Assembly (NCBI GenBank): GCA_022600195.1
Contig: JAHZKX010000059.1
Coordinates: forward strand, 62,001-126,000
DNA length: 64,000 nt
Reading direction: 5' to 3'
Source of the DNA: Planctomycetota bacterium
GTDB taxonomy: Bacteria; Planctomycetota; Planctomycetia; Planctomycetales; Planctomycetaceae
Positions 49,993 to 54,900 of this stretch are shown in pieces. Below the pieces are notes generated by a model, which saw only the letters and a program-made list of their open reading frames with translations, was not told the DNA's origin and searched no databases. Every line of letters begins with the position of its first letter. Position 1 is the stretch's first letter. Position numbers and translations under genes: made by a program.

Positions 49993-50029
49993 GTTCACAT
50001 TTCCGTCATCACTAAATTGAGATATAATC

Positions 50030-50072
50030 ATCCCTACGATTCCTATTGGAATTGTGGGGATTTTTCTTTTTT
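50030..50072 (+). terminator. Rho-independent terminator, possibly an attenuator
   Basis: ATCCCTACGATTCC pairs over 14 bp (three G-T) with GGAATTGTGGGGAT around TATT, then TTTTTCTTTTTT. It ends the Lys-rich gene and finishes only 7 nt before the start of the next gene; a TATAAT lies at 50023. Confidence 0.85.
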
Positions 50073-50079
50073 AGGGACA

Positions 50080-51660
50080 ATGGTTTGGGACATGCAGATG
50101 CTATTCGACCGAAGAAATCCAGATCGGATGATATTTTCGCTTCTCTGGCTGAGCATGGCCTGGTTCTTAATTGGGATGAGTGCTTGCTCGCCCGATCCTG
50201 CCATCGAGAGTGAGGCAAAGGCGGCCCAGAAAACGAAAGTAGAAGACGAAGAGATCTGGCAGGTGGTTTACGTGAATAACCAGCGTATTGGCTATGCTTA
50301 TACGCAAATTCGGTTTGAAGACCAGGCTGGCACGAAATTGATGCACACCCAGAGTGATTCCTTTTTGAAATTCAAGAGATTTGGGCAAGTATTGAATCTG
50401 GAGCGGCATTTACAGACAACAGAAACGGCAAACGGGGAGTTGCTGTCTTACATTTTCCAAATGAAGAATCCACCTGCCGACTCAACTGATTCCAAGGGGG
50501 TCGTTGAGGATCATCAACTAAAAATAGAAACAAAAATTGCGAGTCAATCAAGCCGATCTCAACTGAAATGGAATTCTGAATTCCATTCACCAAGCTATCT
50601 CGAACGTGTTTTCAAAAAGATCACTCTGAAGCCGGGAGAAGTGAATTCGTTTTCCATGTTGCTTCCGGAATACAATAAAGTTACCGAGGTCCATCTGGCA
50701 GCTCTGGATTACGAAGAGGTTGAGCTGCATGGAGGTCGTCGTCACAAATGCTTACATGTCAAGATGAAACAGTCATTACTGCCTGGGATGGTGGTTGACC
50801 TTTACGTGACTGAAGAGGGTGAGATACCAAAAACGACGGCTGATTTTCTAGGGGCTTCGATGCTGACCTATACAGTGAGTAAAGAGGTGGCGTTAGAAGA
50901 AATTTCAGGTGAGGAACTGGACCTGGCCGTGCAGACGTTGATTAAAGTTTCTCCGATTCCGAATGCGCACGGTACGAATAAAGTGGTTTATAAAGTCACT
51001 TTACAGGATAATGATCCCGCAAAATTCCTTTCCCGGGGAGCTGGCCAGCGTATTAAGCAACTGGATGAGCGGAGCGTCGAATTGACCGTAGTTAAAGTGC
51101 CCGAAGGCGGCCGGTTGTCTGATCAAAAAGTGGAGTCAGCGTATGTCGTGCCGACACAATTCATTCAGTCTGATGATCCACGCATTGTGAAGTATGCGGA
51201 AGAGGCTGTAAAAAGTGAGAAAGATCCCTGGAAAAAAGCGAAGTTGATGGAACGTTATGTCTATCAAAACTTGAGAAAAAAGAATTTTTCAACGGCGCTG
51301 GCTTCGGCATCTGAAGTTGCGAAAAATATGGAAGGGGATTGTACCGAACATGCTGTCTTACTGGCGGCGATGTTACGGGCACAGAAATTACCCTCTCGTG
51401 TTGTGGTGGGGCTGGTCTACATTCAGAGTCGTTCCAGCTTTGGCGGTCATATGTGGACAGAGGTATTTCTGGACAATCGCTGGATCCCCCTCGATGGCAC
51501 TCTGGGAAAAGGGGGGATTGGAGCGGGGCACATAAAGTTAGCCGATTCCGGACTGGCCGAGAATTCACCTGCCCCTTTATCGCTCTTTCTACCTTTGCTG
51601 CAGGCGGTAGGAAAACTTTCGATCGAAGTGATCGAGATCGACCCCAAATCTGTGAAATAA
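50080..51660 (+). CDS. Transglutaminase-like lipoprotein
   Basis: From the ATG at 50080 it is 526 residues; ATGs at 50092 and 50098 are also possible, and the upstream ATG at 50017 is excluded because a terminator lies after it. An N-terminal hydrophobic stretch ends at GMSAC, a lipobox. The C-terminal third is a transglutaminase-like domain with the triad Cys in GDCTEHAVLLAAML, His in GGHMWTEVF and Asp in WIPLDGT. Such exported domains act as peptidases or crosslinking enzymes; the substrate is unknown. Confidence 0.8.
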   Translation: MVWDMQMLFDRRNPDRMIFSLLWLSMAWFLIGMSACSPDPAIESEAKAAQKTKVEDEEIWQVVYVNNQRIGYAYTQIRFEDQAGTKLMHTQSDSFLKFKRFGQVLNLERHLQTTETANGELLSYIFQMKNPPADSTDSKGVVEDHQLKIETKIASQSSRSQLKWNSEFHSPSYLERVFKKITLKPGEVNSFSMLLPEYNKVTEVHLAALDYEEVELHGGRRHKCLHVKMKQSLLPGMVVDLYVTEEGEIPKTTADFLGASMLTYTVSKEVALEEISGEELDLAVQTLIKVSPIPNAHGTNKVVYKVTLQDNDPAKFLSRGAGQRIKQLDERSVELTVVKVPEGGRLSDQKVESAYVVPTQFIQSDDPRIVKYAEEAVKSEKDPWKKAKLMERYVYQNLRKKNFSTALASASEVAKNMEGDCTEHAVLLAAMLRAQKLPSRVVVGLVYIQSRSSFGGHMWTEVFLDNRWIPLDGTLGKGGIGAGHIKLADSGLAENSPAPLSLFLPLLQAVGKLSIEVIEIDPKSVK

Positions 51661-51736
51661 GGGACGACAATCATAACCAGAGGAACCTGGTTTTCATTGT
51701 AAGTCTTACACATCTGAGCCAATTTAGAGGTTTTCC

Positions 51737-51755
51737 CATTGCAATTCTTGCAATG
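51737..51755. promoter_or_regulatory. Perfect dyad, candidate enhancer-binding site for the sigma-54 promoter
   Basis: CATTGCA, five bases, then TGCAATG. Its centre is about 141 bp upstream of the predicted start, the usual range for bacterial enhancer-binding protein sites. No other gene starts nearby on the plus strand. Confidence 0.5.
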
Positions 51756-51860
51756 ATTGAAAACCGGGAAAATTGTCCAAAGAAGTGAAATGATTTAATT
51801 CCCTTTTATTTAAGAGTTTAAGCAAGCTTTTGTAAAATCGAATGGAATTAGGTAATTGAT

Positions 51861-51876
51861 TGGCACGGTTACTGCA
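51861..51876 (+). promoter_or_regulatory. Sigma-54 (-24/-12) promoter
   Basis: TGGCACGGTTACTGCA matches the consensus TGGCACG-N4-TTGCW at every defined position but one (C for T before TGC). GG and GC are at the required spacing. Start predicted near 51887. Confidence 0.8.
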
Positions 51877-51886
51877 TTATCAGTCA

Positions 51887-52064
51887 GTGGGTAAAGAGAG
51901 AGACCCATCGAATTTTAAAGAGTTGAGAGACTTTAAAATTCAAGAGAGAAGAGACAATCCCACCGACCCGTGGAGGCGGGTCAGCCCACCCAGGGCCACT
52001 CCAAAACATCATCCCCATCTTAGAGCCGAGAGAATTCCCGTATTCTCTCGGCCCTTTCTATTTA
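51887..52064 (+). ncRNA. Candidate sigma-54-dependent small RNA
   Basis: About 178 nt from the predicted start to the end of a terminator-like hairpin. No ATG occurs on the plus strand. Stems: TGGGT/ACCCA (51888-51907), a perfect 11-bp stem GAATTTTAAAG/CTTTAAAATTC (51910-51941), GACCCG/CGGGTC (51965-51982, with an alternative TGGAG/CTCCA fold), then the 3' hairpin. The loops of the first two stems are purine-rich with GAGAGA. An unpaired stretch CATCATCCCCATC (52007-52019) is complementary to a Shine-Dalgarno-plus-start pattern (GGGGATGATG). It lies between the transglutaminase gene and the convergent rnc gene. A GTG-started frame runs through (to 52096) but has no ribosome-binding site and passes through the terminator, so I favour RNA. 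Confidence 0.6.
52025..52064 (+). terminator. Terminator-like hairpin of the candidate small RNA
   Basis: GCCGAGAGAAT pairs perfectly with ATTCTCTCGGC across six bases, followed by CCTTTCTATTT. The T-tract is imperfect but positioned as a terminator. Confidence 0.7.
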
Positions 52065-52128
52065 TAGACCAGAAAATCGGTAATTATCGGCGTTGATTTC
52101 AGTTGAAGCGCATGTAACCTGAGTCAAT

Positions 52129-52872
52129 TCAAATGGCGTCTGGTAGTGCGGGAAGTTCCCATTCCTCATCCTTTTCATTCACGCGTAATGCATTAAAAGC
52201 GGCGCGTTGCTCTGCCTCTTTTTTGGTAGAGCCCCAGGCTGGTTCATAATGATGATCACCAATAATGGCAGTGACCTGGAAAAATTTGGAATGATCGGGG
52301 CCTTTTTCATCCAGCAATTGATAGATGGGAGTCTGTGCGAACTTCTTTTGTGAGTATTGCTGCAGCAGGCTTTTATAATTGAAACTATGAACAGAGAGGG
52401 ATGCCGTAGCGTTCTCGCGTTCGATCAGCGGGTCCAAAAAATCATGTACGGGGTCGATGCCTCCGTCCAGGAAGATACCGGCAATGAGTGCTTCAAACAT
52501 CCCCGCTAATAAAGATTCTGGCAGGGACTCGGTCATGGCCAGCCCTTTGCCCACGAACAGAAATTGATCCAGGCATTTTTCGCGTGCCAGTTTGGTACAG
52601 GTATTACGGCTGACAACGGCTGATTTGATACGCGTCAATTCCCCTTCTGGTGAATTGGGAAATTGACGAAAAAGCTGTTCACAAACAACTGATCCAAGAA
52701 TGGCATCGCCCAGGAATTCCAGTCGTTCATTGGAATCCGTACGCGTCTTAGCGGCAGAAGTATGTGTCAGGCAGCACTTCAACAATTCGACATCTGAAAA
52801 GTGATATCCCAGACTACGCTGGCACTCCTCCAGGAGTTGATCGATCTCTGCGGGGTTGAGATCGTATAACAT
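52129..52872 (-). CDS. rnc: Ribonuclease III
   Basis: From the ATG at 52872, preceded by a strong AGGAGG, it is 247 residues. The longer frame (start 53073) has no ribosome-binding site and atypical sequence. The RNase III signature NERLEFLGDAILGSVV carries the catalytic Glu/Asp residues. The C-terminal double-stranded RNA-binding domain runs YKSLLQQYSQKKFAQTPIYQ ... AAFNAL. It cleaves dsRNA in rRNA precursors and small RNA duplexes. The candidate small RNA ends 65 bp from its 3' end, convergently. Confidence 0.94.
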   Translation of the reverse strand: MLYDLNPAEIDQLLEECQRSLGYHFSDVELLKCCLTHTSAAKTRTDSNERLEFLGDAILGSVVCEQLFRQFPNSPEGELTRIKSAVVSRNTCTKLAREKCLDQFLFVGKGLAMTESLPESLLAGMFEALIAGIFLDGGIDPVHDFLDPLIERENATASLSVHSFNYKSLLQQYSQKKFAQTPIYQLLDEKGPDHSKFFQVTAIIGDHHYEPAWGSTKKEAEQRAAFNALRVNEKDEEWELPALPDAI

Positions 52873-53394
52873 ATAAGCCTCCTCTTGGTTCATTTCGTTG
52901 AAATACGTTAAGTGAGCGCTAGACGTATTCAACCGATATGGCCCGCAGTGAATTATTTTTAGCTTCCCTAAGTAAAGAATTATACTACCACTAGTGTCGT
53001 AACGAAGAAAACCAAAAAAGCAAGTTTCATGAGATTGGTCAAAAAATATCCAATTTTTCAGCGGTTTATCCAATTACAATTGCTCATCCGGAAAAAAACA
53101 GGTTGTGGAATCCATTTTTTTTGAAGCGTTCCCAACACATTACGTCTCTGAACTCGTAGTACAAGAAGTCCAGCCGTTTGAAACAAATCATCCATGCTCT
53201 TCTCGATGTGCACATACCTTGATCTGATTGGTTTGAATCGGGGTGATCTGAGTATTGCTAAGTTGTTTTGTAACAGACAGTTGAATTGCAAGTAAATTTC
53301 GGGATTGTAAATGATGGTCTTTATTTTGTATTAATTTGATAAAAGAAATGGCCTGAGGCGAACCTTTAAGTCATTCAAATTAGGAGGGTAAGTA
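52873..53394. other. Divergent spacer between rnc and htrA
   Basis: About 520 bp, AT-rich, with frames that look non-coding. No strong promoter was pinned down by eye; promoters for both genes are expected here. Confidence 0.5.
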
Positions 53395-54900
53395 ATGAGA
53401 GCTTTAACAGGGAATCGAAGCTGGATGTTCGCTCTGATAGGTAGCGCATGTCTGGTTGGTGCAGCGGTGGGGATGGCTCAAAAAGATAACAGTCCTGAGT
53501 TTCCAGCCGTCGCGACGGTAAATGATCTATCGAATGTTTTTCGCGAAGTCAGTCGCAAGGCAATGCCAGCGATCGTCGCCATTGAAACCGTCAATAAAAC
53601 GTCACAGGTCTCTGGCGAAAAGTCTTTACCATTTGGTGAGAATTCTCCCTTTGGGGATCAATTCAAAAATGATCCACGGTTCAAAGACTTCTTCAAGCAA
53701 TTTCAAAATCAGCCTCGGAGAGCACCTCGTAAAATGGGTACCGGTTCTGGATTTGTGATCAATAAGTCCGGTCTGATTATGACGAATTCCCACGTGGTTC
53801 GTGGTGCTGATGTGGTCAAAGTGATTTTAAACGATGGTCGTGAATTTACAGCGACTGATATTCGAATGGACCCCCGTTCTGATGTTGCGGTCATTAAGAT
53901 TGATGCACCAGACCTGCATGCCATTCCTATGGGCGACAGCTCTAAAATGGAAATTGGTGATTGGGTGCTGGCGATTGGGAATCCGTTTGGCATTGGTATG
54001 AGTGTGACAAATGGAATCATCAGTGCGAAAGGTCGCGGTCCGGGAATCAACGACCGGGAAGACTACTTACAGACAGATGCTGCCATCAATCCTGGTAACA
54101 GCGGTGGTCCTCTGTTGAATTTAAGAGGTGAAGTCATCGGCATTAACACAGCCATTTCCAGCCGCAGTGGTGGATATGACGGTGTGGGGTTTGCGATCCC
54201 CGTGAATATGGCTCGGTGGGTATCCGGTCAGCTGATAGATCATGGTAAGGTGAAACGCGCATTTTTGGGCGTAGGCATCCAGCCTATCAGTAGTGATCTG
54301 TCTAAATCCTTCGACATCAAAGTGGGGCAGGGAGCAATTGTGACTCAGGTGATGGATGATTCTCCCGCTGATGCAGCAGGTTTGAAGACGGGCGATATCA
54401 TACTGAAATTAGCCGGTAAAGATGTCACAGGTCCTCGTAACTTGCAGGGAATTGTTGAACAACTGGTCGTTGGTAAGTCCTACGTGATGGAATTATTGCG
54501 AGATGGGAAACGCATCAACCAGGATATCAGCATGAAGGAAATGCCCAAGAGCTTCTCTGTGGCAAAAGATGAGAAACCACTTGAAGACACGAAAAAAGAG
54601 AAGCAGAAAACCAGTGTCAATGTATTGAAGATTGAAGTACAGCCTATCACGCAAGAGTTGGCTCAACAGTTAGGATATTCTGACAGTGTGAAAGGTGTTG
54701 TCATCACCGCTGTTGAACCTGGTAGTGCTGCTGAAGAAGCTGGATTGATGAAAGGTATGATCATCGAAAAGATCGGAACTACAGAAGTTTCCACAATGGA
54801 TGATTTCAATCAAGGGTTGAAATTATCCAAAGATAAGAAAAATGTATTGCTGCTGGTGAGAAACCACAGTGGTGCCCGCTTCGTCGTGGTTCCCAAGTAG
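53395..54900 (+). CDS. htrA: Do-like HtrA serine protease with two PDZ domains
   Basis: A protein of 501 residues with AGGAGGGTAAGTA immediately before the ATG, one of the best ribosome-binding sites here. A hydrophobic N-terminus (WMFALIGSACLVGAAVGMA) directs export. The trypsin-like domain has His in TNSHVV, Asp in RSDVAVIKID and Ser in NPGNSGGPLLN. Two PDZ domains follow (FLGVGIQP... and near GYSDSVKGVVITAVEPGSAAEEAG). It degrades or refolds misfolded envelope proteins. A strong terminator follows. Confidence 0.95.
   Translation: MRALTGNRSWMFALIGSACLVGAAVGMAQKDNSPEFPAVATVNDLSNVFREVSRKAMPAIVAIETVNKTSQVSGEKSLPFGENSPFGDQFKNDPRFKDFFKQFQNQPRRAPRKMGTGSGFVINKSGLIMTNSHVVRGADVVKVILNDGREFTATDIRMDPRSDVAVIKIDAPDLHAIPMGDSSKMEIGDWVLAIGNPFGIGMSVTNGIISAKGRGPGINDREDYLQTDAAINPGNSGGPLLNLRGEVIGINTAISSRSGGYDGVGFAIPVNMARWVSGQLIDHGKVKRAFLGVGIQPISSDLSKSFDIKVGQGAIVTQVMDDSPADAAGLKTGDIILKLAGKDVTGPRNLQGIVEQLVVGKSYVMELLRDGKRINQDISMKEMPKSFSVAKDEKPLEDTKKEKQKTSVNVLKIEVQPITQELAQQLGYSDSVKGVVITAVEPGSAAEEAGLMKGMIIEKIGTTEVSTMDDFNQGLKLSKDKKNVLLLVRNHSGARFVVVPK

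Follow-up and report, generated by a model that had tools for sequence, protein, structure and literature searches.

The locus and its promoter

The window, by which we mean the whole stretch of DNA that was analysed (64,000 nucleotides), comes from a planctomycete genome that very probably belongs to the genus Gimesia. At positions 51861-52064 of its plus strand, downstream of a transglutaminase gene, lies a stretch that very probably encodes a small regulatory RNA, so far undescribed, with its own sigma-54 promoter and an upstream activator site. The neighbour on the other side, rnc (RNase III), is convergent with the RNA gene. The predicted -24/-12 promoter, TGGCACGGTTACTGCA (51861..51876, plus strand), starts 200 nt past the transglutaminase stop and is the best such site of the window. 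When the 64 kb were searched on both strands for TGGCACGN4TTGCW with at most one mismatch, this was the single site found. An earlier sequence-only reading of the locus had proposed it as a -24/-12 match. The promoter core, TGGCAC and CTGC, is unvarying in all 17 genomes of the genus. The genome carries one Sigma54_DBD match (E 1.2e-61), and rpoN is therefore present. Taken as a whole, the observation in that reading was borne out: the site, the stems, the terminator and the loops that it described are all there.

Putative upstream activator sites

Aligning the 17 genus genomes brought out two conserved palindrome blocks 5′ of the promoter that the sequence-only reading did not contain. Putative activator site 1, TTGTAAGTCTTACAC (51697..51711, plus strand), is an imperfect palindrome of the TTGYAA-N3-TTRCAA type placed 164 nt before the -24 element, and it is conserved as TTGTAA-N3-TTACA in 17/17 genomes. 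Putative site 2, TTGCAATTCTTGCAA (51739..51753, plus strand), is made up of two palindromic half-sites, lies 122 nt ahead of the -24 element and reads TTGCAA-N3-TTGCAA in all 17. Throughout the genus, site 1 starts 42-43 bp ahead of site 2, and the spacing of the blocks to the RNA differs by no more than 3 nt. The 6.58-Mb genome has the exact pattern TTGCAAN3TTGCAA at a single place, compared with 2 per strand for the reversed pattern. Sigma-54 promoters require palindromes so placed if an enhancer-binding protein is to switch them on, and these are probably the site of the activating one. Similar palindromes stand at comparable distance in other genera. The promoter is conserved across genera along with the RNA, and the two-site enhancer footprint strengthens the original promoter claim.

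A wider regulon of the upstream palindrome was sought and rejected: 20 regions around other occurrences in the genus, a sample among the matches listed, gave two borderline sigma-54 sites (score 9.5). The upstream palindrome alone is not diagnostic. Perfect TTGTAAN3TTACAA palindromes were also seen at five loci of two genomes (L182, L183 and L188-L190; G002 and G014), some recurring between species and with no sigma-54 site nearby; another regulator may use them.

Structure of the RNA

The predicted non-coding RNA spans 51886..52064 on the plus strand. Its start is placed about 12 nt past the -12 GC, the model match covers 51889-52062, three covariance models (R1, R2 and R3) describe it, and it contains no conserved frame. 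The predicted fold has an energy of -58.6 kcal/mol (z = -5.07), and none of 200 shuffled sequences was as stable. The several stems of the sequence-only reading, a perfect 11-bp one among them, resolve into two 11-bp helices, one helix of 6-7 bp and two of 4 bp; the GAGAGA that it placed in two loops is found in the first two. The absence of ATG, to which it also pointed, holds for 51887-52064 and means little alone, as 6% of shuffles also lack one.

Helix 1 (51889..51906, plus strand) pairs GGGU with ACCC around the loop AAAGAGAGAG. Helix 2 (51910..51941, plus strand; 51910-51920 with 51931-51941) has 11 bp and the loop AGUUGAGAGA; four of its 11 pairs have changed on both sides, and 98.8% of its cells are paired. 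Helix 3 (51965..51982, plus strand), GACCCG-UGGAGG-CGGGUC, has 6-7 bp, GGA in its loop and UCCCACC just 5′ of it. Across the family, five of six helix-3 pairs show two-sided changes among 50 distinct sequences; within the genus, six of seven never vary. Helix 4 (51984..51996, plus strand), GCCC/GGGC, falls outside the family model. Helices 1 and 4 are without covariation support, because both are invariant in the genus, and RNAalifold pairs the 5′ stretch of helix 1 with the 3′ tail instead.

A C-rich single-stranded linker, CACTCCAAAACATCATCCCCATCTTAGA (51997..52024, plus strand), follows. Within it CATCATCCCCATCTT is unvarying in 17/17 genus genomes, as is CATCATCCCCATC (52007-52019), a segment that the sequence-only reading had described as an unpaired seed; it is indeed unpaired in the minimum-energy fold. 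In other genera that segment did not turn up in the linkers; what these have in common is the C-rich motif CACNTC. The RNA closes with an intrinsic terminator (52025..52064, plus strand), whose 11-bp stem (52025-52035 with 52042-52052) carries the loop UCCCGU and is followed by CCTTTCTATT; the tail is U-rich. The hairpin had been noted as terminator-like, and across genera nine of its 11 pairs show two-sided changes. A contact between the helix-3 loop and either the linker or the terminator loop was considered by eye and dropped, as several genera break it.

Conservation within and beyond the genus

The element is present in 17/17 genus genomes, the other 16 being 88-97% identical over the aligned part of a 236-base query; the same search in 42 genomes of other genera returned short matches alone, at E 0.004 or worse. 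Two-sided changes within the genus affect five of 37 pairs (14 cells), four of them in helix 2 and one in the terminator, while slid controls gave 0 each and shuffles 2.1 pairs on average. The number of further pair types in the genus was no higher than in shuffles. Together, the 88-97% identity in 16 other genomes, the covarying pairs and the invariant promoter core place the element beyond chance.

The family was reached with covariance models free of promoter sequence. R1, built from the transcript alone, matches 34 of 170 family genomes at E<=1, 17 from the genus and 17 others. R2, built from the 3′ domain of 10 sequences of seven genera, matches 83/170 family genomes at E<=0.1 (74 of them at E<=1e-4) and 111/397 class genomes at E<=0.1. 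The 96/170 family genomes with no R2 match at E<=1e-4 are not proof of absence, because only a few candidates per genome were scored. In the two main helices of the family alignment, 14/17 pairs and 137 cells show two-sided changes among the 50 distinct sequences; slid controls gave 3-19 such cells and shuffles a mean of 33.6. Pairing percentages from this alignment are inflated, as it was fitted to the structure. The covariance search of relatives, which the sequence-only reading had suggested as a check, found stems and terminator conserved across genera, at loci where the promoter, which was no part of the models, was scored separately.

Beyond the family, three genomes from other families of the class (G420, G422 and G193) each have promoter and palindromes and look genuine. 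Among the 20 other-family class hits whose regions were fetched, eight had a -24/-12 site scoring at least 9.5 and three an upstream match at 11/12 positions; the rest look like chance. Loci L163, L166 and L241 of family f5 gave related terminator-domain hits, each with two TTGYAA-N3-TTRCA-like sites and good -24/-12 sites, which suggests that the predicted system reaches past the window's family. R3 listed 13 out-of-class hits at E<=0.01, of which ten were examined (all but L251, L252 and L253) and rejected as chance terminators, having no good -24/-12 site (best 9.0) and no upstream site (best 9/12). One genome, G169, carries two strong copies of the RNA (G169:C149:24517-24631, E 8.2e-16; G169:C126:44587-44701, E 2.1e-14), which by analogy with the qrr genes are perhaps redundant.

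A promoter test independent of the RNA models

Promoter and palindromes were scored at 35 loci from 23 genera, taken from the 58 genomes that belong to the family but not to the genus and gave R2 hits at E<1e-3. The set comprises the loci whose regions were fetched and includes G080 and G184, both used to build R2; the window's own genome, from which the finding came, and the weak hits L142-L145 (E>1e-3) were left out. A -24/-12 site scoring at least 9.5 lies within 300 nt upstream at 34/35 loci (22/23 genera), compared with 233/5902 controls in the same DNA. At a distance of 95-190 nt ahead of the -24/-12 site, 29/35 loci have a palindrome with 10 or more of its 12 positions matched, against 100/5902 controls; at 11 of 12 positions the count of loci drops to 17/35. 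Promoter and palindrome occur together at 28/35 loci (19 genera) and in 0/5902 controls; these exact counts are optimistic, as the score and distance limits were chosen after the loci had been viewed, and the gap is large still. Among the four weak hits, none had the promoter. It is comparison of this kind that shows the predicted RNA, its structure, its promoter and its upstream sites.

Proposed mode of action

Transcription of the RNA, the action of an enhancer-binding protein and the function of the RNA we infer. Bound to the two palindromes, which precede the -24 element by about 120 and 165 nt, an enhancer-binding protein would cause sigma-54 RNA polymerase to make a non-coding transcript of about 175 nt, with its 3′ end at the RNA's own terminator. 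Acting in trans, the RNA would use its purine hairpin loops (GGAG/UGAG) to hold an RNA-binding protein off its messages for as long as the activator is on. The protein so held would most plausibly be one of the dozen CsrA-type proteins of the genome. A sigma-54- and enhancer-switched RNA that titrates a CsrA-type protein is the best explanation we can offer from the sequences, and we regard it as evenly poised between right and wrong.

The genome has the proteins that such a circuit would draw on. Of its 21 enhancer-binding protein matches 12 are strong, and the CsrA domain is matched 13 times, in 12 frames. No Hfq match was found in the genome by a search that, run as a control, recovered Hfq from 5/14 genomes, including those of E. 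coli and B. subtilis. So many CsrA frames, with no Hfq match beside them, make up an unusual set of RNA-binding proteins. In the RNA itself, the loops resemble one another and are rich in purines; the helix-3 loop region contains GAG in 49/51 and GGA in 42/51 relatives. GGAG or UGAG (KGAG) stands in the loop of 40/174 predicted hairpins of 36 RNAs, which are related and so not independent, against 0-3 per set in 20 shuffled sets. In one relative (L128, genome G089) the 5′ part of the homologous RNA, between the -12 element and the core, is predicted to form five hairpins in succession, each with the loop UUGGAGAG (GGAG) (z -6.66), a CsrB-like array. Such GGA hairpin arrays are how CsrB-type RNAs hold CsrA.

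Against titration, the window's RNA offers a single loop with GGA, that of helix 3, and a single one with UGAG, that of helix 2, few for a titrating RNA; 9/51 relatives lack GGA in the helix-3 loop region; and GAGAG lies inside hairpin loops in 6/83 cases and mostly outside them. Extending the claim to a planctomycete RNA that is found through much of its family and in parts of its class, is driven by sigma-54 with a dedicated enhancer-binding protein and titrates CsrA-type proteins gives a tentative proposal, more doubtful than titration at this locus.

The main rival is an antisense regulator, in which the C-rich linkers and the CCCGC terminator loop would base-pair with mRNAs at their purine-rich ribosome-binding regions, in the manner of Qrr RNAs. 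CACNTC is present in 37/50 distinct family linkers, where shuffles would lead one to expect 7.5, and CACCTC, which is complementary to the Shine-Dalgarno-like string GAGGTG, in 24/50 (3.6 expected); CCCG[CT] lies in or beside the terminator loop in 42/51. Set against these counts are the window's exact seed, which is not kept outside the genus, the lack of an Hfq match in the genome, and the repeated purine loops, which antisense pairing leaves unexplained. The pairing of CATCATCCCCATC with a Shine-Dalgarno-plus-start pattern, on which the sequence-only reading had rested its regulatory proposal, is not supported, the seed being confined to the genus. Antisense action is possible, if somewhat unlikely; titration is preferred to it, and both may hold.

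Four of the 13 csrA matches were inspected for the control region of the RNA, and none has the upstream site or a convincing -24/-12 site (best score 8.5). In the leader of L233, the CsrA gene with the highest score, TGAGAGAGAA, a purine run as in the RNA, stands just before the start codon and after a hairpin-like GGATGC...GCATCC. Naming the activator by co-occurrence, with the window's genome compared with G158 and G117, decided nothing: G117, a genome that the models do not hit, shares most of the orthologues (the comparison left out the G117 protein L224 and seven of the 25 G158 matches). Two enhancer-binding proteins of the window's genome, L041 and L042, are 50% identical, and by eye their N-terminal parts look like unusual receiver domains; L042 shares a contig with the RNA gene, roughly 16 kb away from it.

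Other readings of the locus

The promoter-like site could be read by another factor, with the RNA made independently of sigma-54. We consider this very unlikely, since the -24/-12 core and the upstream palindromes at a set distance, which constitute the sigma-54 arrangement, are conserved jointly in many genera.

The element could also act in cis, as the leader or 3′ end of a neighbouring transcript from the transglutaminase gene or rnc. The distance from the transglutaminase stop to the promoter is 200 nt, and at 12/35 other-genera loci a transglutaminase gene again lies upstream; it was not found at the remaining loci, and many loci have other neighbours. Among 60 loci tested, rnc is a neighbour at the own locus only, the sole genus member among them, and nearness to it is therefore unlikely to matter. 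With rnc convergent, and with a conserved promoter and terminator belonging to the RNA itself, a cis element is highly improbable. The RNA probably acts in trans, as its own promoter and terminator are kept while its neighbours change.

Least likely of all, to the point of being dismissed, is a small-protein mRNA, with a TTG or GTG frame over 51860-52096 translated under sigma-54 control: a 78-aa frame is open in the window, but it has no ATG and no Pfam match, the corresponding frame is open in 5/17 genus genomes, the aligned genus transcripts (174-179 nt) differ by indels that are not multiples of three, and conservation falls on the structure instead. The coding reading was rejected on the unconserved frame and the missing Pfam match, and the non-coding claim of the sequence-only reading, which had named a GTG frame at 51887-52096 as the one to watch, is upheld, that frame not being conserved.

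Relation to known systems

Rfam gave no match in positions 50000-54000 of the window up to E 5 and none at gathering score in the loci of 20 relatives. As far as we searched, the RNA is not described in the literature on planctomycete or Gimesia small RNAs, the sigma-54 regulon, structured RNAs or CsrA/CsrB. What is supported of the sequence-only interpretation is a sigma-54-type promoter and a structured non-coding RNA with its own terminator, undescribed as searched; what lacks support is the pairing of its seed with a Shine-Dalgarno-plus-start pattern. In its promoter logic the predicted RNA works like Qrr and CrcZ, and it is a member of neither group.

Qrr RNAs need Hfq, which was not found in the window's genome, and Rfam presumably holds a Qrr model, to which the window's RNA gave no match. 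Qrr1-5 of Vibrio, under LuxO and sigma-54, otherwise offer a close parallel: a sigma-54 promoter, upstream palindromic enhancer sites and an intergenic RNA. The LuxO sites on qrr genes are often paired, and those of V. fluvialis qrr1 are predicted at -119 and -89, according to passages of PMC10162802 and PMC11443567. The LuxO half-site TTGCA also occurs inside site 2 of the window. The LuxO palindrome given in the same passages has 13 bp, TTGCAW3TGCAA (PMC10162802, PMC11443567), whereas that of the window has 15 bp, TTGYAA-N3-TTRCAA; the window's TTGCAA-N3-TTGCAA, two bases longer, does not match the LuxO site.

In Pseudomonas, sigma-54 and CbrB drive CrcZ/CrcY, RNAs that hold an RNA-binding protein, as part of PMC8871633 describes. 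The likeness lies in control by sigma-54 and an enhancer-binding protein, which is predicted for the window's RNA. CrcZ sequesters Hfq/Crc, and no Hfq match was found in the window's genome. The CrcZ motif is A-rich, whereas the window's family repeats GGAG/UGAG in hairpin loops. Nor did CrcZ/CrcY appear as an Rfam match, if a model for them exists, in positions 50000-54000 of the window or in the 20 loci.

The CsrB/RsmZ group resembles the window's family in the hairpin array with GGA loops of one relative (L128) and in the presence of CsrA-type proteins in the window's genome. It differs in that the window's own RNA has one GGA loop and gave no Rfam match. We know of no CsrB/RsmZ RNA that is switched by sigma-54. 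Passages of PMC4682653 describe sequestration of CsrA by CsrB-type RNAs and, together with parts of PMC8871633, the switching of known CsrB/RsmZ RNAs by BarA-UvrY/GacA.

The Rhodopirellula-1 motif is also a candidate structured RNA of Planctomycetes, and we set it beside the window's RNA by description alone. Its table row, '? y ?', we take to mean a doubtful RNA that is likely cis-regulatory. The row stands in Weinberg 2010 (PMC2864571), where the motif is reported from groups including Planctomycetes and has no Rfam accession in the table.

Implications

The small RNAs known from Planctomycetes seem to be few: a table in the review PMC9029176 lists 8 across the PVC group as a whole and 345 for Proteobacteria, numbers that we take as small RNA counts. 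Sigma-54 genes in Planctomycetia have been predicted, with csrA enriched among the predicted sigma-54-controlled genes, in PMC12316311, in the main text of which the terms sRNA, small RNA, non-coding and Gimesia do not occur. The RNA would tie the many enhancer-binding proteins to this reported csrA enrichment, and would open a view on RNA regulation where no Hfq was found. Because the control region is complete and conserved and the structure fixed, a cultured Gimesia would allow joint tests of promoter, activator and targets. If titration is true, the RNA would be a central RNA regulator of bacteria that seemingly lack Hfq and have about a dozen CsrA paralogues, and would join the promoter logic of LuxO and qrr to the mode of action of CsrB.
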